From assembly GCA_039583875.1 (NCBI GenBank), contig CM077149.1:19357194-19421193 (forward strand): 64,000 nt of DNA, given 5' to 3'. The position numbers and the translations under genes were made by a program. The DNA is from Platanthera guangdongensis (Eukaryota > Streptophyta > Magnoliopsida > Asparagales > Orchidaceae). The notes under the pieces are model-generated. The model ran no database searches, was not told the DNA's origin, and saw only the letters and a list, made by a program, of their open reading frames with translations. Below are positions 10,418-63,919 of this stretch, piece after piece; within the stretch, counting starts at the first letter, position 1; the number at the start of each line of letters is the position of its first letter.

Positions 10418-10603
10418 AACTAAATGAACGAAAACTATTGCAATAATAGAGAGTAAAAATTAAACTAGGGTCTAACCCGATATCACTTGTGTAGAGGTCT
10501 GAGCTTCCTCCCTACTCACCACATTCAGGTTTCCTTTTCCACTGTCCTAGTTTGGTGGCGGCGTCAGAGCCCGAAGCGGGGCAGGCTACAGTGGAGTCTG
10601 AGC

Positions 10604-11702: not shown

Positions 11703-11752
11703 TTCTATAAAAGTAACGAACGACTCATCAAAAATCCTAGATTACAATTAGG

Positions 11753-11757
11753 CCACG
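11753..11757. other. Target site duplication of C, left copy
   Basis: CCACG directly outside the 3' LTR; the right copy is at 21381-21385. It proves integrase-mediated insertion into B. Confidence 0.93.
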
Positions 11758-12191
11758 TGTAAAAGGCGAACAAAAGTGAACAAAAACAAACCGGAAGTGG
11801 TTTAACTGACACTTTATTATCCGAAAAAGGTATCTATTATAAAGGTATGACCTCCTTTATATAGAATGGAGGAGAGAAGGGAGAATACAAATAAGAAATG
11901 TGGGACTAAAAATTTACAGGACACAAGCGGACTATACAGACACAAACCGCACAAGCCGCACTGTTAGACAGAAGGGCTAACCGCTCGGCAACTACCAGAG
12001 AGAGAGAGAGAGATCGCCATGGGAGACCGCTAGATCGCCTGGTCTCCAAGTCGCCAGAGACAAACCGCTAGACTGCTTGGACCTCAGACAGCAACACACA
12101 ACAACCAAACCGCTGAAGGGTAAAAGCAAAACCGCACGATCATCAACCCGCCAAGCCAGACTGCCAGACCGCCCGGTCACCAACTTCAACA
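11758..12191 (-). repeat. Element C 3' LTR (434 bp)
   Basis: TGTTGAAGTTGG at 12191 and TTTTACA at 11758 on the minus strand; ends are TG and CA. It holds the uninterrupted version of the G insertion site (AGATCGCCATGG at 12011-12022). Confidence 0.95.
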
Positions 12192-12207
12192 CTCCCCTTC
12201 AAGCTGG
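12192..12207 (-). other. Element C polypurine tract
   Basis: CCAGCTTGAAGGGGAG on the minus strand, immediately upstream of the 3' LTR. It primes plus-strand DNA synthesis. The pol stop codon TGA lies inside it. Confidence 0.85.
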
Positions 12208-13689
12208 AGCATATATATCGATCATGCCTAGCTTGTCACAAATATGAAGAAACGAGGCGAATACTGGCTTGGTGAAGATGTCAGCCAGCTCTTTATCAGA
12301 AGTGACGAAGGGAGTGCAAATTTGTTCCTTCAAAATCTCTTCACGAATGAAATGACAGTCTACCTCAATGTGTTTGGTTCTTTCATGGAAGACCGGATTT
12401 TTGGAGATGTATATGGCAGCCTTGTTGTCACAGAACATAGGTAGAGGATGGTTGTAGACCTCTCCTAAATCCAGCATGAGAGCCCGTAGCCATTTTAACT
12501 CACAAGTGGTCGATGTCATACTCCGATACTCTGCTTCAGCACTGGTCCTGGAAACAACAGACTGCTTCTTGCTCTTCCAGCTTACCAGATTTCCCCCAAC
12601 AAAGGTGCAGAAACCGGAGGTAGACTTGCGATCCCCTTTGTCATTAGCGTAACTCGCATCTGAGTATGTTTCAACCCTCAGATGACCATTCTTCTGAAAG
12701 AGTAATCCTTTCCCCGGCGCTGCTTTGACATACTCCAAGATCCGCAAGGCAGACTGTAGATGGCACTCCCTAGGTGCTTGCATGAATTGTCTCACCTTGC
12801 CCACATCATAGGAAATGTCGGGCCTGGTCACTGTGAGATATATGAGCTTACCAACTAGATGCCTGTACCGCGTAGTATCTGAAAGAAGAGGCGAATCATC
12901 TGTCCAGGTTTTGTCTTATCCAATTGCCATGGGGCATCGGGCAGGTTTGGCTCCAGTCAATCCTGCTTCTTTTAATAGATCAAGGGCATACTTACACTGG
13001 GAGAGGACTAAGGAGTTGAGCTTCCGAGAGATTTCGATCCCCAAAAAGTACTTCGGAGAGCCCATATCTTTCGTGACCAGATGTTGACGAAGATGTCGTT
13101 TTGTCAAGGCTACCCCTTCCTGATCATCGCCAGTAAGAAGAATATCATCGACGTACACAACAAGAACCACCAGTCCCGAGGAGGTTTTGCGAATAAATAG
13201 CGAGTGATCGGCAAAGCTGCGCGCAAAACGAACGGCCACCACGATGCCGCTGAACTTGTCAAACCAAGCTCGAGGTCTCTGCTTGAGGCCATAGATTGCC
13301 GTCTTCAGCCGACATACTCGTGTCTCCCCCTGAGTAACATACCCAGGAGGTTGCTCCATGTAGACGGCCTCCTGAAGATCACCATAAAGGAAGGCATTCT
13401 TTACATCAAGCTGGGAAATCGGCCAATCTCGATTGACCGCCACAGAGAGAAGGACCCGTATAGTGCTGAGACGAGCCACAGGAGAGAAAGTGTCAAAGTA
13501 ATCAACCACAAAGGTCTGAGTAAAACCCTTAGCAACAAGGCGAGCTTTATAATGGTCCACCGTGCGGTCCAGGCCAAATTTGACCACAAAGACCCAGCGA
13601 CACCCAAAAACATCAGTACCGAAGGGAGGAGGAATAAGAGTCCAGGTACCCCGCTCCGTGAGGGTCGCCATTTCCTCATCCATGGCCAT
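12199..13689 (-). pseudogene. pol: Element C reverse transcriptase and RNase H
   Basis: RT motifs: [66 protein letters not shown], catalytic VVYVDDILLTG (about 13140-13170), GSPKYFLGIEI. A single TAA near 12913-12915 precedes KTWTDDSPLL. RNase H follows: TRPDISYDVG, YSDASYANDKGDRKSTSGF, RTSAEAEYRSM, DNKAAIYISKNPVFHERTKH, and the end MIDIYAPA with its stop in the polypurine tract. A TAG or frame break at about 13690 separates it from the integrase frame. Catalytic residues are intact. Confidence 0.9.
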
Positions 13690-13692
13690 GTG

Positions 13693-15354
13693 CTAGTGAG
13701 GAATAACAAGGGCCTCCTGGTAGGAACAAGGTGTGGAAGTGGCAGAGATAGCCAACGCAAAGGCCCTGCGAGAAGAGGTAAGACGATCATATGAAACAAC
13801 AATAGTAAGGGGGTATAGGGTACACGTCCACACCCCTTTGTGAAGAGCTACAGGAATATCCAGGTCGGTGGGTCCCTCGGTATCCGGAGCATCCGTGGCA
13901 GAGAGAGCTGGCTCGGGTGGAGAGAGCGACGATGGCGGAGATGAGGAAGACGGTGGCGGAGAAGTGGGAGAGAGAGGTGGAGGGAGAGGAGTGGATGGAG
14001 ACGGTGTAGGGGTGGATATCGCAGTAGGAGACGAGGGAACGAAGGGAATAGCAGGAGAATCAGAAGCTGGGGGAAGAGGAGAGGAAGCTGGGGGAAGAGA
14101 AGAGGAGTCATCCGAGAAGTAGGAGGCATTCTCGAAGAAGGTAAAGTCATCGGAGACGAACTGTTGACGAAGAACGGGGTTAAAGCAACAGTAGCCTTTC
14201 TGAGTGGTGGAGTACCCCAGAAAGACACATTTGGTGGAGCAAGGGGATAGATTATCACGGGTGGCAGAGGGGGCATGCATAAATGCAGTGCACCCAAAGA
14301 TTCAGAGAGGGAGAGGAAAAGGCTCCTTGCCCGGATACAGAATGGAGAATGGGGTTTTCTCGTGGAGAACTGTGAAGGGAATACGATTGATGAGGTAGCA
14401 GGCAAGGAGAACAACATAGCCCGAATATGAGCGAGGGACATACATCTGGGTCATTAACGTGCGAGCGACATCAAGGAGGTGACGGTTTTTGTGTTCCGCC
14501 ACCCCATTTTGTTGGGAGGTATAAACACAGCTAGTCTGATGAATAATGCCATGTTGTACACAAAAAGAGGTAAAAACATGACTCAGATATTCTTTAGCAT
14601 TGTCAGAGCGAAAGATTTTAATACGAACACCAAACTGAGTTTTAATTAACTGATAAAAAGAGAGCCATACATCGAAAAGTTCAGAGCGATCTCGTAAGAG
14701 ATACACCCAAGTACATCTAGAAAAATTATCAATAATGGTTACAAAATAAGAACTACCCCGACTAATGGTGAGGGTAGGAGCAGGTCCCCAGACATCGGAG
14801 TGGACAAGATCAAACGGACGAGTAGAGCCCCGACCTTGCTTCAGCGGGAAGGAGGAACGGTGATGCTTGCCTAGTTGACAAGCGTCGTAGTGGAGAGGAG
14901 TACTGGAGGGAGGGAGGTGGGGCAGAAGCTGATGTAAAAGGCATGGTGGAGGATGACCGAGACAGAGATGCCACTGGAGAAGATCCGGACAAGAAGATGA
15001 GGAGGCGGACAAGGCGGAAACGTTGTCGAGGAAGTAGAGGCTGTCGCTCTCAGTCCCACTAGCAATCGTCCGTTGGGAGCTCGGATCCTGAAAAGAACAA
15101 GAAGTCGGAGTAAACGTCACAGAACACTGAAGCTGCTTGCATAAAGAGATAACTGACAATAAATTGCACGAAAACTTGGGCACATAGAGAGTGTCCGCTA
15201 GTCGAAGGGACGGAGTAACATGAACCACTCCCGACCCATGAACCGGGGAGGAAGAACTGTCTACAACGAGGACCGGGGGCAACCGATCATGCTGTTCGAG
15301 TAGAGAGAAGCACTCAGGATTGCCCGTCATGTGATTAGTTGCACCAGAGTCGAT
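13693..15354 (-). pseudogene. pol: Element C protease and integrase
   Basis: Protease motif IDSGATNHMTGNPE at about 15310-15354, just after a TGA that ends gag. Then LADTLYVPKFSCNLLSV and the GAG-pre-integrase motif LLQWHLCLGHPP. The integrase core shows D of LVHSDVWGP, D of IFRSDNAKEY and E of GVAEHKNRHLL, where ERKN is usual. The C-terminal part FLGYSTTQKGYCCFNP comes after a stop near 14302. It ends in a long Pro/Ser-rich linker (about 13900-14100) before RT, common in copia. Confidence 0.88.
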
Positions 15355-15357
15355 GAG

Positions 15358-16278
15358 TCATTTACCTTGAGTCACCACGTGGGCACTACCTGAGGATGTG
15401 ATCACGGAGGCAGACGGCTTGGAAGAGGAGGCAGAAGAGTCACCAGAGGGTCGAAGATGGGGATGCTTCATCCAGCAGTGTTTGGAAGTATGTCTGGTGC
15501 GGCCACAGTGAGAGCAGAGGTAGCGGGAAGAAGCACGTCCGCCGAACTGGTGACTGCGGCTACCAGAGCCACTCCACTGAGTTTGATGAGCATAGTTGTC
15601 CGGGGGAGGAGAAGCGGGCAGAAGTGGGCGCTGAAGGAGAGAGGTGACAGCGGCGATGCGGGCAGCGGTGACATCTAAGGTAGGAGATTCCGCCTCACAC
15701 AGAATTTGTTGGCGGATCATGTCATAAGTATCAGGAAGCCGGAGCAGATAACACACAACCAGAAGCTCCTGGAAGTGCTTGTGTTATTGAGCCAAATTCG
15801 CAGAAAAGGGGCGATTCTGAAGAATCTTAGCCCCAAGAGCCTGAACCTGTTAGTAGGCAGCAGTAGGAGACAAGGTATGACGGGCAAAGAGGTCCGTATA
15901 CAACGTATAGACGCGGGATGTCTGAGCCCCCTTGGAGTACAGAGCAGCAAGATGAAGCCAAGTGGTCTTGACCGTCTCATCATGACGGATGACGGGACGA
16001 CACTCATCGGAAAGGCTATTAGCGAGCCAAGTACGCACAAGCGTGTCACTCGCATCCCAGTCATCAAAGAGAGGTGAAGTGGTAGGAGGAGGGTTATCAA
16101 CGAGATGGTGGCGTTTGTGTTGCGAGCGGAGGAGAAAGGTGAAAGAGACGCTCCAATCCGGGTAGTTGGAGCCGACAAGCTTGGAAACTGTGCCAAGGTT
16201 CCCGGAAGGAGTAGGTGGAAGAGGCGGAGCCGGATTGGCGGCAGGAGTGGTGGTAGTAGAAGCATCAGAAAGAGCCAT
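15358..16278 (-). pseudogene. gag: Element C gag
   Basis: Start at 16278 (MALSDAS). The capsid region shows KLVGSNYPDWSVSFTFLL, DDWDASDTLVRTWLANSL and KTTWLHLAALYS. Stops at about 15850 and 15780 interrupt it; the frame goes on with RLPDTYDMIRQQIL and a knuckle CSHCGRTRHTSKHC in which the usual GH is RH. TGA at 15355-15357 separates it from protease. Confidence 0.82.
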
Positions 16279-16621
16279 AGGAGCAAACAACGGGAAGCCA
16301 CGCGGTTAGGAAACAAGCCGTGCGGATAGGAAGAAGAACAGCTGCAGCGGTCATGATGGCAGACACCAATGGCCAGAAAATCCACGACCAAGCCGCAGAA
16401 TCAAGCAGAGGGATAGAAGTTGAGCGGTTAGAAGACAGTCCGCTCGAACAGAAGCAAAGACCAAACAAGGCAACAGGTCGCGGCGACTTAGCACAGGTAA
16501 CAAAGAGGTCGCACACACAGAGGACAACGACAAGGAGAGAAAGAAGCCGCGCGGACAGGGAGCAAACCGGCAAAGCAAGCCGCGCGGACAGGGAAGGCGC
16601 ACAGGATTAGGAGGAGAATAT
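16279..16621 (-). other. Element C leader between primer site and gag
   Basis: No gene seen. It contains several copies of a short CCGCGCGGACAGG-type motif; the same purine- and GCG-rich vocabulary is found in the leader of F. Confidence 0.6.
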
Positions 16622-16638
16622 CGAGCCCTCTGATACCA
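16622..16638 (-). other. Element C primer binding site
   Basis: TGGTATCAGAGGGCTCG on the minus strand, directly after the LTR end TTTTACA: a perfect tRNA-Met-type primer site. Confidence 0.92.
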
Positions 16639-16892
16639 TGTAAAAGGCGAACAAAAACGAACAAAAACAAACCGGAAGTGGTTTAACTGAAACTTTATTA
16701 TCCGAAAAAGGTATCTATTACAAAGGTATGGCCTCCCTTATATAGAATGGAGGAGAGAAGAGAGAATACAAATAAGAGATGTGGGACTAAAAATTTACAA
16801 GACACAAGCAGACTATACAGACACAAACCGCACAAGCCGCACGGTTAGACAGAAGGGCTAACCGCTCGGCTACTACCAGAGAGAGAGAGAGA

Positions 16893-16897
16893 TCGCC
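16893..16897. other. Target site duplication of G, left copy
   Basis: TCGCC at 16893-16897, repeated at 21203-21207. The 3' LTR of C has a single TCGCC at 12014-12018, an empty site that confirms the duplication. Confidence 0.93.
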
Positions 16898-18927
16898 TGT
16901 AACACCCCCTATCTGTCGCATAACATATAGCAGTAGGTCCAGCCGGGGCCCGATGCCATATACTACAGACAGACCGGGTGGTTACTCATGGAAACCATCC
17001 AACCAATCATAACGTCCTACACAGAGCATTCTAGCGGAAGTAGATTAATAAGTTGCAATAAAGAACCCAGCACTAAAGCATGAATGTCCACTAATACCAA
17101 ATAGGAATGTTGTACATACACAAGTACAGGCCTTAAGGCCTTACAAAATGGTTCACTTGATATTACATGATTTACAAACCACAGCACGCAGGCCGGTCAT
17201 ACATGAATAAAACAGTAAACACTCCTGTTAGGCCTTCGAGGGCTGGCTTCGCAATTTGGGCTTTAGCCCGCTATTGACTGCTTGGTCCAGCAGCACCTGC
17301 AAGCAACAAACCAACGCACGGTGGCAAAACAAGGCAACGGTCAGCAATGCTGACCAAATTATAACGATCCCGCCCCCAACTCAGTGCGGCGTTGCTCCTT
17401 CTCTGCATTTCATTAGCATAAGCGAGCAATATATATATATTCATTTCATCACAGACGTTGGCACGCACGGCCACACGCTCCGTGCTCTCAGGGCACATTC
17501 TCGGTGAACCGGTCGATGTCACGTCAATTAAAGCCATAGACATTCCGGACTCACCACCGCCACTTTGACGGCCAAACCTATGAGCAATTTGTCTTCCCGG
17601 CATGGGTCACGACAGTTTAAGCCATAGACCGCCGAAGACCCTCATCTATGCCAACGGCAAGTGCCACGTCACCTTAGGTCTCTTTAACCGAACAACATAG
17701 AAATGGGTACGGTTCTATCTAACACGTGCTCACGTCGCAACGACAGTTTAAGCCATATGCGCGGGTCAAACTTCTCCCGAGTCCCATTTTCGTCACACAT
17801 TTCACATAACCCGATTATGTTCAAGTTGGCTCTCAGGCCTCCAAGTTGGCAAGATCACGCATCCGCCCAGTTTTCCGGGTGCACCTTTGTGTTAATCCCC
17901 AAGGTTCCCTGTTGCAATCTACCGCGTAGAAAACCCGAAAAACAACCAATAGCACAGAGTCTTCTCCGGCATTATGCAATGCAACATCACCGATCCAGAC
18001 CAACATGTCCGGATAGGCTTCACACATCATGCCTATGTCCGTTCTCGCTTACGGACTCTACACAACGGGGAATTTACATACCTACCCGAAGGAACGCCTT
18101 CAACTCACCGCAAACTCGCGAGAGCGGGCTTCCTATGCAAAGAAGGAGAGCTACACATGCTCAAGAAGAGAATCGTTACCCTTGCATTCTTCTTTGGCGC
18201 CATGGAAAAGTAAGCGGATGAAAAGCACCGCACTAGCTTTGCCTCCGTGGATCCGGAGTCAGCTCACAATTTGGAGTTTCGAAGCTCCACCAATGGCCAG
18301 ATCTAGCTCCTTCTTCCTTCCTTGGCTCTCCTCTCTCCCTAAGCTTTAGAAAGATAACCACTCATGAAAAGTGAGGGTTTCTAAGGCCCAATCCCGGGTA
18401 TATCCCATCAGGAACAACTCCCAGCCGTTGGATCACCAATTAAAGAAACGAACGACTTTGATTCGGGACTGAAATATCCAATCTGGACCGAACACTGCCT
18501 GGCACACGCCTGTGTCCAGGGTCGTGTGCCTCATTCGCCATCAAAATCGACGTGCCTGGAACATCACACGGGCATCGAACACGCCCGTGTTCGAGCCGAC
18601 ATGCCCGTGTTCCAACTGACACGGCCGTGTGGTCGGCCGTGTGCCCCCATCTTTTTATACCGAAAACAACCCGAGAACTACACGGGTTCCTGGACACGCC
18701 CGTGTCCTAACCCATGTCCACTCGAACATGCCTGGGCTCCAGGCCGTGTTCACGGTCTCGACACTCGACACTTCGTCGAGCGAAGTTCGTCGAGCTCACA
18801 ACACGGCCTTGGACACGCCCATGTCCTAGGCCGTGTGCCTTCTCTCGACACTTCGTCGAGCAAAATTCGTCGACTCCCCGGGACGAGTGTCGACACGGGT
18901 CGACACACCCTGAGACACGCCCGTGTC
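16898..18927 (+). repeat. Element G left inverted arm
   Basis: 2030 bp, complementary to 21202-19107. No gene. A short (TA) run at about 17427-17441 marks the site of the large (TA) expansion in the other arm. The inner part holds the ACACGGGCGTGT-type array. Confidence 0.92.
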
Positions 18928-19560
18928 AGGCTGGGTTCGATGTTTTGGTCGAGAGGTCGACGATTTTGGAGTCGATGATCGTCGAGCAGAGAACACGACC
19001 TGCGACACGGGCGTGTCGCAGGGCGTGTCAAGGCCGTGTCGACGATCGGCCCAGAGTGTCGACGAATTTCGCTCGACGATGTGTCAAGAGATGGCACACG
19101 GCCTACGACACGGGTGTGTCACAGGGCGTGTCGACCCGTGTCGACACTCGTCCCGGGGAGTCGATGAATTTTGCTCGATGAAGTGTTGAGATAAGGCACA
19201 CAGCCTAGGACACGGTCATGTCCAAGGCCTTGTCGTGAGCTCGACGAAGTGTCGAGTGTCGAGACCGTGAACACGGCCTGGAGTCCAGGTATGTTCGAGT
19301 GGATACGGGTTAGGACACGGGCGTGTCCAGGAACCCGTGTAGTTCTCGGGTTGTTTTCGGGATAAAAGGATGGGGGCACACGGCCGACCACACGGTCGTG
19401 TTAGTTGGAACACGGGCATGTCGGCTCGAACACGGGCGTGTTCGATGCCCGTGTGATGTTTCAGGCACATCGATTTTGATGGCGAATGAGGCACACGGCC
19501 CTGGACACGGGCGTGTGCCAGGCCGTGTTTGGTCCAGATTGGACATTTCAGTACCGAATC
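18480..19560. repeat. ACACGGGCGTGT / TCGTCGAG motif array in G
   Basis: Repeated near-palindromes of the type ACACGGGCGTGT, e.g. starting at 19390, 19410 and 19430 (20-nt spacing), mixed with GTGTCGACAC and TCGTCGAGC-type motifs also seen in the SIRE-like and Tat-like elements. It spans the centre of the palindrome. Confidence 0.85.
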
Positions 19561-20578
19561 AAAGCCGTTCGTTTCTTTAATTGGTGATCCAACGGCTGGG
19601 GGTTGTTCCTGATGGGATATACCCGGGATTGAGCCTTAGAAACCCTCACTTTTCATGAGTGGTTATCTTTCTAAAGCTTAGAGAGAGAGAGGAGAGCCAA
19701 GGAAGGAAGAAGGAGCTAGATCCGGCCATTGGATGAACTTCGAAGCTCCAAATCGCGAGCCGACTCTGGATCCACGGAGGCAAAGCTAGTGCGGTGCTTT
19801 TCATGCGCTTACTTTTCCATGGCGCCAAAGAAGAACGCAAGGGTAACGATTCTCTTCTTGAGCATGTGTAGCTCTCCTTCTTTGCATAGGAAGCCCGCTC
19901 TCGTGAGTTTGCGGTGAGTTGGAGGCGTTCCTTCGGGTAGATATGTAAAGTCCCCGTTGTGTAGAGTCTGTAAGCGAGAACAGACATATGCATGATGTGT
20001 GAAGCCTATCGGGACATGTTGGTCTGGATCGGTGATGTTGCATTGCATAATGCCGGAGAAGACTCCGTGCTATTGGTTGTTTTTCGGGTTTTCTACGCGG
20101 TAGATTGCAACAGGGAACCTTGGGGATTAACCCAAAGGTGCACCCAGAAAACTGGGCGGATGCGTGATCTTGCCAACTTGGAGGCCTGAGATCCAACTTG
20201 AACATAACCGTATTATGTGAAATGTGTGACGAAAATGGGACTCGTTAGAAGTTTGACCCGCGCATATGGCTTAAACTGTCGTTGCGACGTGAGCACGGGT
20301 TAGATGGAACCGTACCCATTTCTATGTTGTTCGGTTAAAGAGACCTAAGGTGACGTGGCACTTGCCGTTGGCATAGATGAGGGTCTTCGGCGGCCTATGG
20401 CTTAAACTGTCGTGACCCATGCCGGGAAGACAAATTGCTCATAGGTTTGGCCGTTAAAGTGGCGATGGTGAGTCCGGAATGTCTATGGCTTTAATTGACG
20501 TGACATCGACCGGTTCACCGAGAATGTGCCCTGAGAGCACGGGGCGTGTGGTCGTGTGAGCCAACGTCTGTGATGAAA

Positions 20579-20673
<95 letters not shown>

Positions 20674-21202
20674 CTCGCTTATGCTAATGAAATGCAGGGA
20701 AGGAGTATCGCCGCCCCGAGTTGGGGGCGGGATCGTTATAATTTGGTCAGCATTGCTGACCGTTGCCTTGTTTTGCCACCGTGCGGTGGTTTGTTGCTTG
20801 CAGGTGCTGCTGGATGAAGCAGTCAATAGCGGGCTAAAGCCCAAATTGCGAAGCCGGCCCTCGAAGGCCTAATTGGAGTGTTTACTGTTTTATTCATGTA
20901 TGACCGGCCTACGTGCCGTGGTTTGTAAATCATGTAATATCAAGTGAACCATTTTGTAAGGCCTTAAGGCCTGTACTTGTGTATGTACAACATTCCTATT
21001 TGGTATTAGTGGACATTCATGCTTTAGTGCTGGGTTCTTTATTGCAACTTATTAATCTGCTTCCGCTAGAATGCTCTGTGTAGGACGTTATGATTGGTTA
21101 TATGGTTTCCATGAGTAACCACCCGGTCTGTCTGTAGTATATGGCGTCGGGCCCCGGCCGTACCTACTGCTATATGCTATGCGACAGATATGGGGTGTTA
21201 CA
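19107..21202 (-). repeat. Element G right inverted arm
   Basis: 2096 bp, the reverse complement of the left arm. The 66-bp excess over the left arm is explained by the (TA) tract at 20583-20672. Confidence 0.92.
20583..20672. repeat. (TA)n microsatellite, about 45 units
   Basis: Uninterrupted alternating TA of about 90 bp in the right arm of G; the matching place in the left arm has only about 15 bp. Confidence 0.97.
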
Positions 21203-21385
21203 TCGCCATAGGAGACCGCTAGATCGCCTAGTCTCCAAGTCGCCAGAGACAAACCGCTAGACCGCTTGGACCTCAGACAGCAACACACAATAACCAAACC
21301 GCTGAAGGGTAACAGCAAAACCGCACGGTCATCAACCCGCCAAGCCAGACCGCCAGACCGCCCGGTCACCAACTTCAACACCACG

Positions 21386-22001: not shown

Positions 22002-23972
22002 CTGTCACAACACGTATTTTTCGCCGTCATTAAAGTAATATCAGAGTAAGGGAAAAATACGGGTCTTGATACCCCGCTAGCAGGGGATAACTGCGGACGC
22101 TCAGGCGAAATTCCAACTTGATCATGAAGAAAGATCTTTAAGTTATTTAGCGAAAAAAATCATTTTAAGTATAGCAGTTGTCCATATCCCTCGGCTTAGT
22201 GGCTCATCTAGTCCATGAGAAAAAGTAGTTAAAAGCTAAAAAACATACTTCTTTTTACAATGTTAGACATCCTGCATGAGTTTAGAGGTTCCTAGAGGAC
22301 ACCTCAAGGTATGCAAGTTCTAACTTTATAATAGTAATAAAAGTAGATTTTTAAAGTCATTAAAAGTAGTGATTTAATATTTTAAAGTGTGCAATGCATG
22401 AGGTAATAATAGTAGTTTTATTCTTGAAAATACCTACCATGCAGTCCTAGCATAAAATATCCCAGAGAGCAAGTAATCCAAATACACATAAAGAAAACTA
22501 AGAAACTAGCAAGCATCCAAAATCAACATTCCTGTGGGCGTCAGCAAACTGACTTGAACCCACATAAAACAAAGTATGTCTGAGCTAGTAAAGTAAACTA
22601 AACAATAATCTACCTCGCTACGATGAGGTAAAAATCACAACCAACACTGCTGCTCAAACACTCCAACCCAGCACTACAATCAACTACAGATCTGAACCTG
22701 AGGCATTCCAAAGATAAAACACCTCAGCAAGAATGTACAAGTGATGGCAAAAAGTAAGCCAAAAGTAAATAAAGTTAATGGGTACCAACCCAAGACCAAA
22801 GGAAAGATACATAAATAATGTACAATAGTAGGTAAAAAGTCAAAAAGGGAACACTTACATCACGTACAACAAAAGTACATCAAATGCACAAGACCATAAG
22901 GGGAAAAGGTCATGATTAAATCATCAGGAAGAAGGCAAGACCCTACTAGCCACCTGTGGTCAACTCCACCAAAAAAACATACGGACAGGGTGGTCAACTC
23001 ATCTGGACACACCCCCATGGATATATTAATCCGTCATAAGTGCGGGAGAGATTGGATACTCCACCATACACTGCAAAAGCCCCAACACCCGGTAGAGTCC
23101 CACAAAGTACTAACAGAGGGATCAAACATTGCGGTGGTTGATTTGCCCACAAATAACACCCGCAACGAAGAAAATCATAAAGTCACACCCCGTAATGATC
23201 TGGGTTTAGAGCTCAGGGGCACACCACAACCCTATCGGGGCTTGGCGGCTTGTCTCGCCCCACGACATCGCCACGAAGAAAACCATGATATTGATCTCAA
23301 GACAACAATGACACATCAGATTCTACTAGACAATTCTAGATTTGACATGGTTGATTAACCTTTAGGAAGAATTTACAATCCTAAATAAACTCTAACACAT
23401 CCTTCATAAACGTTGAGGAATGATTATAAGGGTGAGATTTAACCACATCATTAAAGTGTATAGCCCTTAACAAGACAAGATAGAAAAATCGAGTACATGA
23501 AAACTATAAATAGAATTAGACAAGAGATCTAAACAACACTATATTCAGCAAGTTGTAAATAATGAATACAAGAAATTGGAAACTTCTGCAAATCAGGTTA
23601 AATAAGGGAAAAGAAGGAGGAAACCATCACTTGCCTTGATTTTACCGGAGAAGACCTCCAAATCGCACCACGACATAGATCGACACCAAGAAAGATGAGG
23701 GAAAATGAAATCTAATAAAAATGGCCAAAAAATAGGAGTTAGGGCCGAAAACCCTAGCGAGAAAAACTCAAGGAATGGGGAAGATTTTACTACGATGGCG
23801 TAGCTCTTGTTGAGAGCTTTCCAGATCTATATTCGGTTGAAGTTCTCGAGCACCGGAGCACCGTCGACGACCACCGGAATATTCACGAACGGACGTTCTC
23901 TCTCTAACTCACGCCTCTCTGGTTCATGAAGAAGGAAGAAAATCTGCCTAAGGAGGAGAAGAAGAAGTTTAT

Positions 23973-23982
23973 CCTATTTATA
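23973..23982 (-). promoter_or_regulatory. Element B LTR TATA box
   Basis: TATAAATAGG on the minus strand, merged with a TATATA run. It lies about 75 bp downstream of the CTCGAG array. It is the same ten bases as in the LTR of A and the internal promoters of D and E. Confidence 0.65.
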
Positions 23983-24055
23983 TATATATATATTATCAAA
24001 TGAATAGTATAATAGATCATTACACTTAAAGAGATAGTCAAGAGTCGGCTGAACT

Positions 24056-25220
24056 GGAATTCTCGGGACGAAGCAAAGATTTCTCGAGAGTAGCTGAATT
24101 TCTCGAGAAGGGACGAATTTCTCGAGAGCAAGGTTGGATTACTCAAGAACAAGATGATGACTTTCTCGAGAACAGGACGAAGCTTGCTCGAAAACAGGAC
24201 GAAGTTTTCTCGAGAACAGGACAAAGCTTTCTCGAGAACAAGACGAAGCTTTCTCGAGAACAGGACAAGACACTTCTCGAGAATAACATAACTTCTCGAG
24301 AAACACCTCTCGAGAACAACAGGACTTCTCGAGTACTGAAATGGACTTCTCGAGAACCGGGAGGACAGTTCTCGAGTACAAGTGAAATTTCTCGAGAAAA
24401 GAGAGAAATTTCACGAGTGAAGGAGGTAACTCGAGAAATGGAGGAGAAATTCCTCGACTACCCGTGAGGCAATTCTCGAGTACAAAGGGCAGATCTCGAT
24501 AACAAAAGAATATTACTTGAGTACTAAAGCATTACTCGAGAATAGAAGGAAGTTTTCTCGAGTAGAAGAAAGAGGTTTCTCGAGTAAGGAAGAAGTTATT
24601 TCTCGAGTACAAAAGCATTACTCGAGAACAAAAGGAAGTACCACTCGGGAACAGCAAAACCCAATTATCGATTACAGAGCCAAAACTTCTCGAGAACAAG
24701 GGCAATTCTCGAGTACAAGTGGATCTTCTTGAGAACAAGAAGGGCAGTTCTCGAGTACAAGCGTATTTTCTCGAGAATAAGAAGGGCAGTTCTCGAGTAC
24801 AAGCGGATCTTCTCGAGAACAAGAAGGGCAATTCTCGAGAACAAGACTGCCTTCTCGAGAACAAGAACAGATCTCGAGTACAAAAGAAGATTACTCGAGT
24901 ACTAAAATAACCTTCTCGAGAAGTAAAAGGACTTATCGAGAGCAAAACTGCATATCTCGAGAACAATAGGGTACTTCTCAAGAACAAACTACTATTACTG
25001 GGGAACAATTCAACCATTACTCGGCTTCAAAAGTAGACCTCTCGAGAACTAGAAGCATTACGCAAGAGCTAGAGGAATTTCTCTCGAGTACAAGAAAAGG
25101 CATTCTCGGGAATCAACACACTACTCGGGAACAAGTCCCTGCCTATTGAGAAACGAAGGGCCAAAGCTCCCGAGTACACAACGATCTCTCTCGAGGACAA
25201 GGTTGTCCAACCCGAGTACT
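24056..25220. repeat. TTCTCGAGAA palindrome array in LTR of B
   Basis: About fifty copies, exact or degenerate, of TTCTCGAGAA or TACTCGAGAA. In the best part CTCGAG-type cores start at 24728, 24750, 24770, 24792, 24812, 24834, 24854 and 24873: spacings 22, 20, 22, 20, 22, 20 and 19 nt. Spacers are A-rich (ACAAGAAGGGCAG type). It sits in U3. Confidence 0.94.
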
Positions 25221-25640
25221 AAGCAGGGTAAATTTCAGAAATTCTAATTTGACTAACATCCGAGATAAAAATGTGACTCTAACAATTTAGAGCGAGGACA
25301 ATCCCTAGAATATGACGTACCATTCTTGAGACACAACAACAAGTTCTTACACAAGCAAAAAAAATCACCACAAGGGTCCAAACACACGCCGAGACTCCAA
25401 AATGCTTGGATCGCAATAAAACTGGACAAATCCAAAGCCTCAAAACCACATCCTTCAAACCAAGGGAAACACTCAACTCAATCAAAAGCCCAAAATCTGG
25501 TCAACCAGATCCAACAGATGCAAAAACGCACAAATGGTGTGGCACCGTCAACAAAACATAAGAAGTGAGGTAATGCCCCGACGTCATAAATACGATGACA
25601 CCAAATTGAATAATAACATCATAAAATCAGGGGCATTACA

Positions 25641-26414
25641 TAGGAGGAGAGAAGTCAGGGTGGAGATGCCCTACTGCAACTTCCACCAAGAGGAAGGGCA
25701 CACCACGGCCACGTGCCCGGAGTTCCTCGAGATGAGAGGAAACAAGGAGCAGTATCAGCAACAATGTCGCCAGGAGGTGAGGATCGACGAGGTCCTGCCT
25801 CAGGCGGAGGAGGATAGATGTGAAGACCGGATGGACGTCGGGACCCGGGGAGGGATCAGTGTGATCCATGAGGGGTGGGGGTGGGGATCGAGGCTTCCTA
25901 GAAGGCGAGCCTCCACACCATGTACCGCCGAAGCGTTGGCTCCACATCCCAGACCCCACCCCCAGAATAGAAGATCACCTTCTCGAGGAAGGATATGCCG
26001 GATCATGATGATCCCTTCTGCGATGTGCTGGTCATCCAGACATCCATTGAGAATTTCACCATATCCAGGATCCTCATTGACAACGGGAGCTCCATCAATG
26101 TCATTTTCAAGAAGGCGTTCGATGCAATGAAGGTGGAGACAAAGAGGGTGCTGAGTTCAGATGGGCCCCTGTTTGGGTTTTTAGGGGAGAGGAAAGAGAT
26201 TGAAGGAGGAGTGGGGCTCCACGTTACTCTGGTGGGGGGGGGGGAGTCCAGGAACTGCAGGTTTGTCATCGTGGATGCCCCCAGTAGCTACAATGCCATC
26301 TTTGAAAGGCCCCTCATCAGCGCCTTCCATTGCGTCCCCTCATCCTTCCACCAGTGCTTAAAGTTCAACGCCGAAGGGATCCAGGTCCGAGTTCGGGGGG
26401 ACGCCAAGTTGTAA
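25641..26414 (+). pseudogene. gag: Element H gag C-terminus and protease
   Basis: Single finger of the Tat type, CNFHQEEGHTTATC (about 25675-25720), then a polar linker. Protease region from about 25995: RILIDNGSSINVIFKKAF, where DNGSS replaces the usual D-S/G-G-S-S, and APSSYNAIFERPLI. Gag N-terminus is missing because of the B insertion; the two parts are in different frames at about 26000. Confidence 0.82.
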
Positions 26415-31605: not shown

Positions 31606-33189
31606 AGCTAACAGCTACTGCTGGAGGGAGGCGGGACAGATACTGCAGCCTCTAGCTCTCGCACCCGTGCCTATAACGCCTCCTTTTCTTCCTCCAAGGT
31701 GGAGACGATGGCGTCGGTCGCTTCCGCCCTCTCTCTCTCTCTGTTGCTCTGCCTCCTCCTGGGAGAGACAACAGGCCTCCTCCTTCTCGTCCACCAGCCT
31801 CTTGAGCGAGGGGGAATTCTTCTCCATCTGGGTGCACCGCCGGCCAACCATGTGGGCCACCTCCAGGCTGCGGAGCTGGGCCCGCACACTCTCATGGATC
31901 AGCACCCGCGTGGCCTCCTCGTCGTAGATGGCGGAGTCCTCCCGCAAGTAGAGGCCGAAGGAAAAGTTGTAGGCCTCCCCGCCGATGGTCTCCTGCTCTA
32001 ACCAACTCGGTAGTAGGGTGGATAGGATGACCCTGTTCGATTCCTTGTCCCACAGGAGGAGGGGGATGCCGAGCTAATCTAGGCTCTACTCAACGTAGCC
32101 AAAATTGCGGTTCCCTCTCGGCACTAGCTTCATAGTGGGTGGCACCTCTTCTTACGGCCTGGAGGTGCCAGCCGCCCCATTGGGGGAACTGCTGGCCAAG
32201 GCGGCTGTGGGGGAGAGATCCCCAGCAGGATGTCTCGCTGGGGCCTCTCCTTTATCCCGAGCTGCGGGAGGTGCGCCGTTCGCGGTCTTCGATTTCTTGG
32301 GCGGCGGAGGAAGTGATCCGCGGCTAGGCCGCTTCGGGGGAGCAGATACCAAGGTCTCGCGGAGCGCGGCGTTAGTGGCCTCGGCATGAGCGAGCTCGCT
32401 GGAATCGAGTCGCGCACTCTCATAAGGAGGGTGTAAAGGGATATCCCGCTCACCTGCATGAAAGAAAAGTTAAAAGCAGGAAAGATAATGACAATAAAAA
32501 GGAGAAGCCTGAGTAGCTTACCTCCCCCTTGCGGGATGGGTGCGAGGTTGTCTAGATTCTGGCACAGGAAGGCGACTTCAAAATTCTTCCCGACGAAGAA
32601 CCCGAACAGCTTCGCTTCATGGCCCCCCAGGCTAAGGGTGGTATCTCATCTCGCTGAGCTTTACCGACGAGAAGGAGACGTTGCCGAAGTCCCCTTTGAC
32701 AAAGACAAATTTCTTTAGCCTGTTATGGCTCTTGTTAACGGTCTCCCGTACCTTGACGTGGCCGCTGGAGAAGTAGGCGGTCCCATCATTATTCACCCGA
32801 AAGGAGAACAGCTTGCGGATGACCGCAAGACTAAACTCAACCCGCTCTTCCCACAAGAAGTACCCAAACTCGATCACCACTGTGATGGAGTTTGGGGTCA
32901 TCTGCCTGGGGATGGCTCCGTAGTATTTCAATATTTGGCGGACCTCCGGCCATAAGGGAAGACAGAGACCTGCCTCGAAATGCGCCATTGGGATGGCGAG
33001 CTCTTCTCCCGAGAGATCATTTATCTTCTCTCCCTCCCCAGGTCGCCTCTCCACAAAGCATGGTGATATATAGTAGCCTATGGCGTCAAAGAACTCGCCT
33101 TCGAAGATGGCAACATGGGGTAAGTTGTGCTCAGAGAAGGTCCAGGCACACTTGCCCCGCTCATCCGCATTGCCGCTACCACCACCCAT
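31606..33189 (-). pseudogene. Element H antisense extra gene 1 (gypsy-type transposon domain + coiled coil)
   Basis: Antisense to pol. Begins at 33189 (MGGGSGNADERG). The first 185 codons carry AGLCLPLWPEVRQILKYYG, MTPNSITVVIEFGYFLWEE and FSFRVNNDGTAYFSS, the pattern of the plant putative gypsy-type transposon family (PF04195-like by my reading). A one-base shift near 32635 leads to a frame running to 32522. A candidate 68-nt intron, 32521-32454, has donor GAG/GTAAGC, branch-like TTTTAAC and acceptor TTTCATGCAG; exon 2 continues in frame. Exon 2 is Pro/Lys-rich, then a charged helical segment (LRSLEVAHMVGRR; LVDEKEEACCLSQEEAE) ending near 31606. Stops near 32150 and 32080. TATA box 33318-33309 lies upstream. 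Function unknown. Confidence 0.62.
32454..32521 (-). other. Candidate intron in antisense gene 1
   Basis: 68 nt; GTAAGCTACT at the 5' side, pyrimidine-rich TTTTCTTTCATGCAG at the 3' side. Removing it keeps one open frame across the joint. Confidence 0.6.
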
Positions 33190-33308
33190 CTCATAGGAAG
33201 TTCGCTAAGCGAAATGAGGTTGTTCTCGAAGCGGGCAAGTCAAGGTTCGCAGGAAGCAAAGGATAAAGGGAAATCTTAAATGCAGTGGGTGAGAAAGAGA
33301 CGGCAAGG

Positions 33309-34406: not shown

Positions 34407-34743
34407 GCGTGAGGGTGATACCCACCAAAATATTCCTTCCAGATCAGCAAAGCACTCATCGAACACGTGGGTTGGATGATTCTTTACGATCTTGGTCAAG
34501 CCCAAAAAGATCGGGGATTGTTTACAACCCCGTGTTTGCCGAGTGGGTCCACCAGGCAAGGCGATCGGACCAAGGAGACCTGTCCGCGCTAGAGCAGCAT
34601 ACGGGCTAACTCAGAATGGCCAGCTCACGCCCGCCAAAGCTCGGAGGGTAAGCTGCGCGAGCCTGCCCAGGCAGCTCGCTTCCGCCCAAGGTTCGTCAAA
34701 CCGAGTCGGGTTTTCACCGAAATGAGCTCGGGTTGAGACCGAC

Positions 34744-34945
34744 GTTCGTCGAGCAGGGCTCGGCGTTTGTCGAATGGAGCCCGACGTTCGTCGAGCAGGG
34801 CTCAGCAATCGTCGAACGGAGCTCGCCGTTCGACGAGCAGGGCTCGACGTTCATCGAACGGAGCTCGTCATTCGTCGAGCAGGGCTCAACGTTCGTCAAA
34901 GGGAGCTCGTCGTTCGTCGAGCGGAGCTCAATCTTCTTCGAGCTA
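34744..34945. repeat. 21-nt TCGTCGAG array in H
   Basis: Ten direct units with cores TCGTCGA (or one change) at 34746, 34767, 34788, 34809, 34830, 34851, 34872, 34893, 34914 and 34935: every step is exactly 21 nt. Units alternate GCAGGGCTCGACGT and ACGGAGCTCGTCGT spacers, giving a 42-nt higher-order repeat. With F removed it lies about 415 bp upstream of the plus-strand TATA box at 40229. Confidence 0.95.
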
Positions 34946-35084
34946 ACCTCGTGAGTTAGAATCCTAGATTTGCTTGACAAAGCTCGACGAACTCAATTCT
35001 TCTGGAATTCCTTCCATAGTAAGTCCCAGACCGCCCCAGGCGAGTGAAGGTATCCGAGGGCCACTCACCCAGCTTCTTTATGAG

Positions 35085-35556
35085 TGTTCGGACAGATAAG
35101 AAGAAGCCAGAAATTGGAATAGCAAAAACTTTATTATCCAAAAAAGGTGAGTATTACAAAGGTATAACCTCCCTTTTATAGAATGGAGGAGATGAGAGAG
35201 ATTACAAATAAGCAATGTGGGACTAAATAATTACAAGTATATACGGCTTAATAAATAAACAGACCGAACAAGTCGCGCAGTTAGACGAGTAGGATAACCG
35301 CTCGACAACCACCAGAAGGAGAGAACAAGCTGCCATAGAGAACAAGCCGTCAGAGGAGACCGCTAGACCACCGGTCTCCAAGTTTCCTGAGACAAACCGC
35401 CAGATCGCACGAATACCAAACAACAATAGACCGCCCGATCTTCGTACTGAAACAGATGCAAAACAGCAACAGCGCGGCAGACAAGCCGCTAAGATAAACC
35501 GCTAGACCGGCTGGCCTCCGAACAGCAACAGATCGCCAGACCTCCATACTGCAACA
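35085..35556 (-). repeat. Element F 3' LTR (472 bp)
   Basis: TGTTGCAGTATGG at 35556; other end CGAACA-like at 35085 (TGTTCG on plus). The polypurine tract CCAGCTTGAGGGGGAG (35572-35557, minus) adjoins it. Confidence 0.93.
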
Positions 35557-35572
35557 CTCCCCCTCAAGCTGG

Positions 35573-37053
35573 TGCATATATATCGATCATGCACAGCTTG
35601 TCTCAAATGTGGAAAAAGGAAGCGGACACCGGATTGGTGAAGATATCTGCCAACTCATTGTCAGAAGTGACAAACGGAGAACAAAGTACAAATCTGTTTC
35701 TTCAAGATCTCTTCCCGAATAAAATGACAGTCGACTTCTATGTGTTTTGTTCTCTCATGGAAGACCGGATTTCTAGAGATGTATATCGCGGCCTTGTTGT
35801 TGCAGAACATAGGAAGAGGATAGTTGTAAACCTCTCCTAAGTCAAGCATGAGAGCTCGTAACCATTTCAACTCACATGTGGTCGATGCCATACTACGATA
35901 TTCTGCTTCAGCATTAAACCTGAAGACTACGAATTGTTTCTTGCTCTTCCAGCTCACAATATTTCTTCCAATAAATGTGCAGAAGCTCGATGTTGACTTG
36001 TGGTCTCTTTTGTCATCAGCATGGCTTAAATCTGAGTATACTTCAACCCTCAAGTGATCATTTTTATGAAAAAGAAGTCCTTTCCCTGGCGCTGCTTTAA
36101 CATACTCTAATATCATCAGGGCAGACTATAAATGGTACTCCCTAGGAGCTTGCATAAATTGGCTCTCCTTTCCTACAGAATAGGAGATGTCGGGTCTGGT
36201 TATCGTGAGATAAATGAGTTTTCCAATAAGACGCGGGTACCTTGTAAGATCAGATAGAAGAGGCGAGTCATCTGTCCAAGTTTTGTCTTCTCCAGCAGCC
36301 ATAGGACATCGGGCAGGTTTCGCACCAGTCAACCCTGCCTTTTTCAAAGATCAAGAGCAAACTTCCGTTGGGAAAGAACCATGGAGTTGGGCTTCCTAGA
36401 GATTTCAATCCCCAAAAGTATTTTGGGGAGCCCATATCCTTTGTGACCAGGTGTTGACGGAGGTGTTTCATTGTCAAAGCTACCCCAGCCTGGTCATCTC
36501 TAGTAAGAAGAATGTCATCAACATATATAGCCAAAACTACCAGACCAAAGGAGGTTTTGCGAATGAATAAGGAGTGATCGGCTGAACTTCTTACAAAACC
36601 AATGGCTGCAACAATTCTGCTAAACTTCTCAAACCAAGCCCGAGGGCTTTGTTTTAGGCCATAGATAGCCTTCTTCAGCCGACATACTCGTGTATCCCCC
36701 AGAGCAACATACCCCAGAGGTTGCTCCATGTAAACATCTTCCTGAAGATCACCATAGAGAAAGACATTCTTAACATCCAGCAGTGAAATGGGTCAATCCC
36801 TATTGACAGCCATAGAGAGAAGGACCTGAATGGTACTGAGACGAGCAACGAGAGAGAAGGTGTCAAAGTAGTCAACAACATAAGTCTGAGTGAAGCCTTT
36901 GGCGACCAGGTGGGCCTTATATCGATCCACGCTACCGTCTGGACGGAACTTTACAACAAAGACCCAGCGGCAGCCAACCACATCAGTGCCCAAAGGAGGA
37001 GGAACAAGGGTCCAGGTTTCCCTTTCAGTGAGGGTAGCAATTTTCTCATCCAT
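35573..37053 (-). pseudogene. pol: Element F reverse transcriptase and RNase H
   Basis: [42 protein letters not shown], a frame change near 36795, MEQPLGYVALGDTRVCRL, IYGLKQSPRAWFEKF, catalytic AIYVDDILLTRDD (about 36500-36530). Stops and shifts near 36400 and 36270. RNase H: TRPDISYSVG, a TAG near 36125, EVYSDLSHADDKRDHKSTSS, FNAEAEYRSMASTT, NNKAAIYISRNPVFHERTKH. More decayed than C. Confidence 0.87.
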
Positions 37054-37059
37054 GGCGGC

Positions 37060-38700
37060 CTTCCAATGAGAAATGACAAGAGCTTACTGGTAGGTGCGGG
37101 GAGTGGCAGTGGCGGAGATAGCCAAGGCAAATGCTCTGCGATAAGGAGTTAGACGATCATAGGAAACAACAACACCCAATGGGTGTTGGGTACATGCCCG
37201 TACCCATTTGCGAAGAGCAATGGGAATATCTAGGTCGGTGTGTCCTGCAAGAACTGGAGCATCCGTGGCGGAGAGAGCTGGCCCTGGAGTAGAGAGAGAT
37301 GGCCGTGGAGAGGAGAGAGATAGCAGTGGTGGAGTGGGAGAGAGAGAGATGGAGGAGACTGTGGAGATGACAATGGAGAAAGCTCGAAGGGAGTATACGT
37401 GGTGGTGTGTATGGTAGGAGGAGCAGAAATATCTGGAGAGGGAGAGGATTCAGAAGAGAAATAGGAGGCATTTTCGAAGAAGGTCACATCTGCGGATACG
37501 TATTATTTACGAAGAACGGGGTCAAAGAAACAATAGCCATTCTAAGTAGTAGAGTAACCCAAAAAGGCACACTTGATGGCACGTGGGTCGAGTTTGTCAT
37601 GAGTGGCGGAAGGAGCGTGCACAAAAGTCGTGCACCCAAAGATACGTAGAGGGAGAGGAAACAGATCCTTGCCTGGATAGAGAATGGAGAATGGGGTTTG
37701 ACCATGGAGAACCGTGGACAAAATTCGATTAATGAGATAGCAAGAGATGAGGACAACGTAGCCCCAATAGGAGCGAGGAACCTGCATTTGTGTCATCAGA
37801 GTGCGAGCGATATCGAGGAGGTGATAGTTTTTACGTTCTGCTAACCAATTTTGCTGTGAGGTATAGACACAACTATTTTGATGAATAATACTATGTTGCA
37901 TACAGAAAGAAGAGAAATCTTTACTAAGATATTCATTAACATTTTCAGAGCGAAATATTTTAATAGATACATCAAACTGAGTCTTAATCATATTATAGAA
38001 GGAGGTCCATACAGAAAATAGTTCGGAGCGATCCTTTAAAAGATACACCCACGTACATCGAGAGAAATCATCAATAAAGGTTACAAAATATGAACTACCC
38101 CGACCAATGGTGAGTGTAAGAGCAGGACCTCAGATGTAGGAGTGAACTAGATCAAATGGTCGGGAAGATCCACGACCTTGCTTTGGTGGGAAGGAGGAGC
38201 GGTGATGCTTGCCAAGATGACATGCGTCAAAGTTGAGAGGAGGACTCTACGGAGGAAGATGGGGCAAAAGCTGACGAAAAAGTCTTGGAGGAGCATGACC
38301 AAGATGAAGGTGCCATTGGAGAAGATCAGTAGAAGAGGAGGAGAAGACGGATAGTGCGGAAGCAATGTCGAGGAAGTAGAGGTCGCCGCTCTCCGTCCCA
38401 GTAGCAATCGTCCGTTTGGAGCCCGGTTCCTGAAGAGAACAAGTAGTAGAAGTGAATGTGATGGAGCACTGTAGTTGCTTGCAAAGAGAAGTAAAAGATA
38501 AGAAATTGCAAGCGAAAGTGGGCACGTAGAGGGTGTCCGCCAAGCGAAGATATGGAGTGACTTGAACCACTCCTTTTCTATGGACCGGTGAGGGAGAGCC
38601 ATCCGCAATAAGGACTGGGGGCAACTGATCATGCTGTTCGAGGAGAGAAAAATATTACAGATTGCCAGTCATATGATTGGTAGCACCAGAGTCGATCGGC
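37060..38700 (-). pseudogene. pol: Element F protease and integrase
   Basis: Protease IDSGATNHMTGNL at 38657-38695. Then LADTLYVPTFACNFLSF, LLQWHLHLGHAPP, and the integrase core with FRSENVNEY, where the usual D is changed to E, and AERKNYHLLDIARTLM. Pro/Ser-rich linker at 37230-37470. Many stops. Confidence 0.85.
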
Positions 38701-39461: not shown

Positions 39462-39475
39462 GTCCTCTGATACCG
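39462..39475 (-). other. Element F primer binding site
   Basis: CGGTATCAGAGGAC on the minus strand: one change from TGGTATCAGAGG. Confidence 0.82.
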
Positions 39476-45409: not shown

Positions 45410-45508
45410 TAGGGATTAGAGATTGAGGAGAAGAGAGATGAAGGTCTGTCGACACAAAGATTTGGTCTCGAGAATACTGAGAGCGTAGTCGACAGAGTTT
45501 TTCTTCCA

Positions 45509-45518
45509 CCTATTTATA
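45509..45518 (-). promoter_or_regulatory. Internal TATA box upstream of extra ORF in E
   Basis: TATAAATAGG on minus, 100 bp upstream of the ATG at 45409 and just downstream of the internal GTGTCGACAC array. D has the same ten bases 100 bp before its ATG. Confidence 0.65.
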
Positions 45519-45555
45519 TGTTTCTAAATAAATAAGGTCAAAAGGTGGGTTGAAA

Positions 45556-63911: not shown

Positions 63912-63919
63912 AAGATATG

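Follow-up and report, generated by a model that had tools for sequence, protein, structure and literature searches.

The 64,000-nt stretch of the orchid Platanthera guangdongensis analysed here (C3:19357194-19421193; the window) is a nest of LTR retrotransposons, and it raises the question of why elements of unrelated lineages carry closely similar rows of short palindromes near their promoters. An earlier note, made from the letters alone, had described TCGA-centred arrays in SIRE-like copia, Tekay-like gypsy and Tat-like gypsy elements and had offered three roles for them, namely a platform for a dimeric factor, a dense CpG target, and small-RNA or structure effects. The arrays were found at the positions claimed, with an enrichment of TCGA far above chance. 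Rows of TCGA palindromes stand at 6.2-7.1, 24.1-25.2, 34.7-35.0, 41.9-42.2, 45.4-45.9, 52.5-52.8, 55.6-56.0, 56.3-56.9 and 63.3-63.8 kb (Table 1), and their sites fall into three classes, GTGTCGACAC (class I), TWCTCGAGWA (class II) and TTCGTCGA[AG] (class III). SIRE, Tekay and Tat-like are lineage names that we take to apply to these elements; domain tests back Ty1/copia and Ty3/gypsy, not the finer lineages. One genome, of 4.25 Gb, was analysed.

Table 1. Arrays, promoters and coding features in the window (positions in nt of the window)
Feature	Position	Strand	Remarks
SIRE1 LTR class I array (GTGTCGACAC)	6244..7121	-	34 TCGA; LTR start 7270; TATA at 6106, 137 nt on
TekB gag (zinc knuckles, broken frames), RVP_2 protease, RVT_1 reverse transcriptase	8879..11757	-	Ty3/gypsy
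Nested insert in TekB, TG..CA ends	11758..21380	.	5-bp duplication CCACG at 11753-11757 and 21381-21385
TekB LTR, TGTAATGCCCC...GTGACA	22004..25645	-	Followed by PBS-like sequence at 22000
TekB TATA box TATAAATAGG	23973..23982	-	Downstream of array; first TATA-like match 91 nt past array
TekB class II array TWCTCGAGWA	24084..25194	-	U3 part of Ty3/gypsy LTR
Tat-like antisense ORF, Transposase_28	32632..33204	-	E 3.4e-8
Tat-like class III array TTCGTCGA[AG]	34740..34987	+	11 TCGA in 34725-35000; probable 3' LTR, boundary by eye
Copia insertion, 5-bp TSD ATGAG	35085..39947	.	Splits Tat-like array from sense TATA at 40229
SIRE2-type second LTR, class I array	41890..42217	-	LTR start 42358; TATA 170 nt on
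SIRE2 accessory ('envelope-like') ORF, open piece	44666..45301	-	A stop interrupts the ORF before this piece
SIRE2 internal class I array, between pol and accessory ORF	45449..45875	-	12 TCGA before and 3 after TATA
SIRE2 internal TATA TATAAATAGG	45509..45518	-	109 nt before ATGGCGCC (45409)
SIRE2 5' LTR class I array	52468..52817	-	LTR start 52958; TATA 148 nt on; 17 TCGA in 52.4-52.8 kb
TekJ class II array CTACTCGAGTAG	55616..56051	-	16 TCGA in 55590-56110
SIRE3 LTR class I array	56347..56880	+	LTR start 56197; TATA 138 nt on; 23 TCGA in 56.3-56.9 kb
SIRE3 internal array, class I and TTCGTCGA-type sites	63343..63829	+	TATAAATAGG at 63761, ATG at 63870

Abundance and periodicity of the palindromes

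TCGA pairs occur in the window at 25.4 per nt of distance for 19-23 nt, against 3.4 for 25-34 nt and 1.7 expected; a sample of 20 hand-picked 10-kb stretches (200 kb, in which related elements count as separate loci) gave 29.0, 8.8 and 3.3, respectively. Among the 16 palindromic 4-mers, TCGA has the highest 19-23-nt periodicity in this hand-picked sample (ratio 3.3), followed by CTAG (2.0), GGCC (1.65) and CCGG (1.62). The sample is enriched 29-fold in TGTCGACA and 19.5-fold in ACTCGAGT over a first-order expectation; the only palindromic 8-mers that outrank these two are TATATATA and ATATATAT, and CCGCGCGG (12 copies, 18.7-fold) stands just below them. TCGA clusters make up 7.2 of the 200 kb and hold 69 of the 71 copies of TGTCGACA and 72 of the 76 copies of WCTCGAGW. 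Clusters of at least six TCGA are present in 13 of the 20 stretches, six of which (L010, L011, L013, L018, L022 and L023) carry regularly stepped arrays of class I or II. Arrays of the GACACGGGCGTGTC type are likewise abundant.

Over the 4.25 Gb, GTGTCGACAC was counted 2,076,908 times and its backwards control 2,228 times, while TACTCGAGTA was counted 263,017 times against 7,045 for its control. Pairs were counted genome-wide for the class I decamer GTGTCGACAC at steps of 18-29 nt, and steps of 18-23 nt (965,101 pairs; control 0) are preferred 82-fold over the equally wide range of 24-29 nt (11,768 pairs; control 1). A chance origin of the arrays is rejected by the genome counts against backwards controls, by the pair-step counts and by the 4-mer periodicity. 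Roughly two million copies of one decamer at a fixed step amount to about 0.5% of the genome, and this combination of copy number and constant spacing speaks unusually strongly for selection acting on a transposon cis-element. The two-turn step is departed from at C1:18192409-18192530, where GTGTCGACAC is repeated at exact 14-bp steps.

Arrays in copia and gypsy LTRs

The copia domains RVT_2, rve and Retrotran_gag_2, together with an accessory ORF after pol, accompany the class I loci and some class II loci. Class II arrays in copia elements include L013, where a PPT and an LTR start TGTTGGGTATTGT follow the copia RT, the homologous LTR piece of L022, L023, in which a tRNA-Met-like PBS TTGGTATCAGAG precedes the copia gag, and L030 from outside the sample. 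The assignment of all CTCGAG arrays to gypsy is wrong, L011, L013, L022 and L023 having turned out to be SIRE. The SIRE LTR arrays listed hold 14-38 TCGA each; repeated units of about 58 bp occur in L018. A TATA-like box lies 125-170 nt past the last site in all ten class I or II SIRE LTR arrays with the downstream side in view (136-170 nt in six class I arrays, 125-142 nt in three class II arrays and, by eye, 136 nt in L032); the chance of any TATA-like box in 250 nt is 0.24, and the ten arrays are related and not independent trials. L022, where the stretch ends, and the interrupted array at L010:4633-4900 were left out of this count.

Placement in SIRE LTRs, as first described, holds for several LTRs but is not general: arrays also occur downstream of pol, and the SIRE LTRs L015, L016 and L024 have no arrays of these classes and carry other repeats instead. 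The boxes of the L015 LTR (6870-5300) are long imperfect palindromes, TTCTCGCCGA..TCGTCGAGAA, of a motif class unlike I and II. SIRE leaders also contain short tandem repeats of 20-24-bp and 67-bp units (window 5510-5652 and 57545-57724), apart from the palindrome arrays.

The TekB array is a class II array of 41 TCGA (24060-25215, minus strand), in which TTCTCGAGAA occurs together with TTCTCGAGTA/TACTCGAGAA; its gag, PR and RT domains show the element to be Ty3/gypsy, within which Tekay/Del is a candidate label. Another copy of the family on C10 (L040) shows the LTR match followed in line by leader, gypsy gag and the start of the protease, and it is free of the nested insert. Genome-wide, the TekB family yielded 10,779 first-look candidates, of which 40 were scored, with at least 84% identity among the matches listed. 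Flank segments of the TekJ LTR (53461-56195) match TekB at 72-80% identity; this LTR is cut by the SIRE insertion at 56197, and TekJ has a clear 43-bp duplicated unit. Class II arrays were found in three of the five windows fetched at other gypsy copies (L041, L042 and L043), and the remaining two miss the array stretch, L039 ending 433 nt into the LTR and L044 being without an LTR match. The distance from array to TATA is 91 nt in TekB, 233 in TekJ, 92 in L041, 66 in L042 and 52 in L043. In L042 (C13:16249100-16250500), a class III (TTCGTCGAA) block is followed by a class II (CTCGAG) block and then by the TATA.

A position upstream of a TATA box is supported for SIRE, TekB and TekJ, whereas the Tat-like array reaches its sense TATA only across the 4.9-kb copia insertion, without which the two would be about 380 nt apart. 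A minus-strand TATA at 34407 lies between this array and the Transposase_28 ORF, which puts a TATA on each side of the array. The exact 21-nt steps that the earlier note had read in the Tat-like array apply to five of its ten steps, and six fall within 18-24 nt. Elsewhere in the window, at 18480-19560, imperfect palindromes of the type ACACGGGCGTGT/GACACGCCCGTGTC are mixed with TCGA sites in an element whose inverted arms (16898-17440 and 20660-21202) are 96% identical; arrays of this kind also occur in L014 and L037.

The claim that unrelated lineages share TCGA-core arrays was upheld and can be extended, as the same decamer family, TWCTCGAGWA, is common to SIRE copia LTRs (L013, L022, L023 and L030) and Ty3/gypsy LTRs (TekB, TekJ and L041-L043). 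The flanks are unrelated, as had been stated; in blastn comparisons of gypsy and SIRE LTRs, the long matches are confined to the array stretches. A SIRE internal array (63.5 kb), the Tat-like array (34.7 kb) and the gypsy LTR L042, here ahead of the class II sites, likewise have the class III word TTCGTCGA in common. Conceivably, pieces of array were exchanged between lineages by template switching, in line with the ...GTAGTTC extension that class II sites of both lineages may carry on one side. We nevertheless infer convergence over such exchange. The sharing of one palindrome array by copia and gypsy appears to be new: our literature searches, with most subscription papers outside their coverage, returned no account of it. 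A search by the motif letters retrieved unrelated papers, probably through primers with SalI/XhoI sites, and the viral-contig scan amounted to one contig.

Anatomy of the sites and steps

When the arrays were aligned on TCGA, the median information at the six positions of the outer core was 1.2-1.9 bits, and that of the flanks 0.2-0.5 bits, in 11 of the 14. A clear contrast is missing from the SIRE3 internal array (0.50 versus 0.16 bits), from TekJ (1.53 versus 0.86 bits), which carries the young 43-bp duplication, and from the Tat-like array (0.42 versus 0.52 bits), whose core is not better conserved than its flanks. Neutral, minisatellite-like tandem duplication would suit the TekJ unit, the L018 units and the Tat-like array, but the equal divergence of core and spacer that it predicts was seen, among the 14 arrays, in the Tat-like array only. 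For most arrays, it is ruled out by the conservation of core over flank, and several families converge on one step and position; as a general account, we hold it to be highly improbable.

Steps of 18-24 nt make up 109 of 159 in the class I set (seven SIRE arrays; mean 20.4) and 99 of 134 in the class II set (six arrays; mean 21.3), so that the two-turn step described at the outset stands, with a spread wider than the 20-22 nt first given. The 10.5-bp phase itself is weak (|R| 0.15 for class I and 0.27 for class II), and hence the sites lie on one face of the DNA only approximately.

Sites lost from the rows may be traced in the double-length steps (34-48 nt; n=47 in 11 arrays), which hold 15 CpG-transition relics, 16 other relics and 16 spacers with no recognisable site, as compared with 3%, 7% and 90%, respectively, in random spacers. 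This one-third share of CpG-transition relics is in line with the view that the arrays matter as dense groups of CpG at which methylation is set or removed, the palindrome being incidental, and so is the observed/expected ratio of CpG in the sample, which is 1.43 in clusters and 0.74 outside. With TCGA masked, however, the ratio in clusters is 0.89, the site itself supplying most of the excess; single arrays range over 0.81-1.39 and class I LTR arrays over 0.81-1.12. Moreover, the outer bases GTG/CAC and TWC/GWA contain no CpG yet are conserved, and we regard a CpG effect as very unlikely to be the main explanation.

The half-sites provide a further view of the palindromes. Class II half-sites show an association when the arrays are pooled (Fisher p 6e-8; 73 sites symmetric versus 47.8 +- 4.5), because each array has its own favourite half-site. 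Within arrays, 73 of 140 class II sites are symmetric versus 70.6 +- 2.6 after shuffling, and 444 of 2000 shuffles reach 73; in class I, symmetric sites are slightly too frequent within arrays (107 of 166 versus 99.5 +- 2.6; 15 of 2000 shuffles). Independence of half-sites is informative in two arrays only, TekB and L022, which have enough of both TTC and TAC, and in these the two are mixed within one site in 11 of 27 and 7 of 14 cases. The mixed sites are lopsided, 15 versus 4. Such free mixing would be explained by half-site recognition by a dimer; base pairing within the site would not favour it. The decamers were also compared with consensus sequences, and neither a heat-shock element (HSE), since TTC and GAA lie 4 apart, nor an auxin-response element (AuxRE), since two TGTC half-sites would overlap, was accepted as their identity.

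An alternative is that the palindromes pair with one another once transcribed, either because such pairing is required in cis or because it triggers small RNAs. Four arrays fold strongly as RNA (z -12.4, -10.9, -13.3 and -7.2), the palindromes of maize Sireviruses have been viewed in this way (Bousios 2016, as cited in PMC10760457), and the pooled association of half-sites and the slight class I symmetry excess point in the same direction. Against this, repeated self-complementary words always fold well, lone sites give by inspection just 3-4-bp stems with a 4-nt loop, the TTC/TAC mixed sites are not favoured by pairing, and pairing needs neither a fixed distance to TATA nor a step of 18-23 nt. 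We consider RNA or single-strand structure an unlikely driver of the arrays, although the strong folding means that a small-RNA role can coexist with a dimeric factor. Among the three roles originally offered, the dimer platform thus fits best, on account of the step preference and of the half-site mixing in two arrays, with RNA structure and CpG effects remaining as lesser candidates.

An internal array ahead of the accessory ORF

SIRE arrays also stand outside the LTRs, downstream of pol. All eight loci examined show the order array, TATA-like box, leader and ATG; they were chosen for their second array, and the box patterns were written after reading them. The distance from TATA to ATG is 106-109 nt in the five class I loci with TATAAATAGG, whose leaders hold three further TCGA, and 151 nt in two near-identical class II loci, while L011 has a weaker box, 164 nt from the ATG, which does not match the general TATA pattern. 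A ninth internal array, in L018, belongs to a stretch that ends before the ORF. In L015, the accessory ORF (an open 479-codon frame, 9454-8015, minus strand) has no class I or II array before it. The SIRE3 accessory ORF is cut soon after its start by inverted AACGTC-rich repeats (window 63900-64000), possibly another insertion. Judged by its sequence, the arrangement of TATA-like box, leader and ATG in the eight picked SIRE loci may well be the promoter that Bousios suspected but did not identify, and it bears on how Sireviruses express their envelope-like gene. Searches of literature listings, as distinct from the full later Sirevirus papers, gave no later account of this TATA-ATG architecture.

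The LTR array and the internal array have the same main motif in all five elements read for both, which are SIRE2, SIRE3, L018, C1:450k (L032/L033) and C1:6.28M (L030/L031), the two C1 pairs being joined by order and distance only. This agreement would be expected if the factor were encoded by the element itself, in the manner of VANC or of foamy-virus Tas, with the accessory ORF product binding both arrays and gypsy elements exploiting it. The accessory ORF also diverges faster than RT between the motif classes (29-32% identity between class I and class II families, versus 67-69%), and VANC proteins are described as binding motifs that change between related elements (PMC5735166). On the other hand, LTR boxes are present even in four Sireviruses that lack ENV, according to Table 3 of PMC2829016, and the protein itself gives little sign of such a role: its Transposase_32 match is weak (E 5.8e-4, below the curated cut-off), the structure model of the ORF piece is useless (pLDDT 35), and a profile search of the PDB with the ORF gave no convincing relative (best E 0.67). 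An element-encoded factor therefore seems to us rather unlikely. We give somewhat less credence still to a variant akin to a regulatory commons, in which the fast-evolving accessory protein of each SIRE family would bind both of its arrays and gypsy elements would have built or captured the same array; this would form a feed-forward or anti-silencing loop, like that of foamy-virus Tas or VANC.

A dimeric host factor as the favoured reading

With moderate confidence, we favour the reading that the arrays are promoter-proximal sites of a dimeric, sequence-specific factor, most likely a host protein, taken up independently by unrelated elements. The promoter-proximal cis-elements would then consist of numerous 10-bp sites with two-fold symmetry, spaced by about two helical turns, to which a putative dimeric protein would bind cooperatively, and the bound factor would drive, or keep open, a promoter about 25-235 nt downstream. 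In SIRE elements, one array would act at the LTR promoter for the genomic RNA and the second at the internal promoter for the accessory-ORF mRNA, so that one factor would control both transcripts. This factor could be one host protein or a small host protein family whose half-sites are related and take the form xxxTC|GAxxx. Two observations favour a host origin, namely the sharing of the sites by gypsy and copia and the presence of boxes in ENV-less Sireviruses (PMC2829016, Table 3). One factor does not explain everything, as L015, L016 and L024 use other motifs and the L015 ORF lacks a class I or II array. If one factor does serve both copia and gypsy, the host may depend on a single protein to control several large repeat families. 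The class I and class II families provide a matched pair for deciding between a host-encoded and an element-encoded factor.

Comparison with known systems

HTLV carries repeats of about 21 bp in U3 upstream of its TATA box, which act with Tax, and foamy viruses have a second, internal promoter that answers to the same factor as the first, Tas. These are animal retroviruses with a known viral transactivator, and for the present arrays they serve as an analogy only. VANDAL elements are DNA transposons. The noncoding parts of VANDAL elements, as described in PMC5735166, have accumulated short motifs as tandem arrays that vary between relatives, and the arrays described here likewise differ between related families; the VANDAL motif, however, is not palindromic, is arrayed in one orientation, and has a known binding protein (PMC5735166).

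Among plant LTR elements, Retand and Grande are reported to have an accessory ORF (TRP28) between pol and the 3' LTR with tandem repeats nearby (PMC11963269), and for the Grande ORF a promoter of its own is announced in the title of reference 13 of that paper. This ORF is antisense, and the arrays are not presented as palindromic promoter elements in the available text (PMC11963269). Immediately downstream of the Tat-like integrase region, a 74-bp unit is repeated in tandem about eleven times (window 29980-30778), a placement that resembles that of the repeats reported between pol and the 3' LTR in Retand. Del (Tekay) LTRs were described in 2014 as having CpG islands in a variable, CpG-rich 5' stretch of the gypsy LTR, with LTRs lacking islands predominating in the cluster that holds the eudicot elements of that study; its main text mentions neither palindromes nor tandem repeats (PMC4029996).

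The closest relatives of the present arrays are those of Sireviruses. The earlier note knew of no account of such a pattern, but palindromic RM boxes, repeated many times upstream of TATA in the LTRs of SIRE-copia elements, were described in 2010 (Bousios 2010, PMC2829016), and a 2016 study (Bousios 2016, as cited in PMC10760457) connected palindrome clusters in the cis-region of maize Sirevirus LTRs with small RNAs. The maize motif CACCGGACNNNGTCCGGTG has 8-bp arms, whereas the present decamers give only 3-4-bp hairpins. RM boxes are reported to occur again upstream of ENV, in ENV-bearing elements only, to constitute CpG islands, and to have prompted the proposal of an internal promoter that was not conclusively identified; they were called Sirevirus-specific against a comparison set of Ty1/copia elements (PMC2829016). 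The SIRE arrays described here resemble them as palindromic motifs of at least eight copies in the LTR upstream of TATA, with further copies upstream of the accessory ORF in the eight picked loci, two of which are near-identical. They differ in that the core is not CGG-CCG, which PMC2829016 gives for 12 of 13 boxes, Vitis CGGTCGACCG included and Tnd-1 ACAATCGATTGT excepted, but GTGTCGACAC and TWCTCGAGWA; in that arrays also occur in Ty3/gypsy TekB, with its gypsy gag, RVP_2 and RVT_1; and in that an internal TATA-like box and ATG are located. The inner TC...GA is nevertheless common to Vitis CGGTCGACCG, Osr10 CGGTCTGACCG and the classes described here, suggesting that RM boxes and these arrays share a single half-site type whose outer bases vary. 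In essence, the SIRE part of the arrays was already known, while the palindrome shared by two lineages, the internal TATA-ATG arrangement, and the half-site mixing and core conservation go beyond the earlier accounts.
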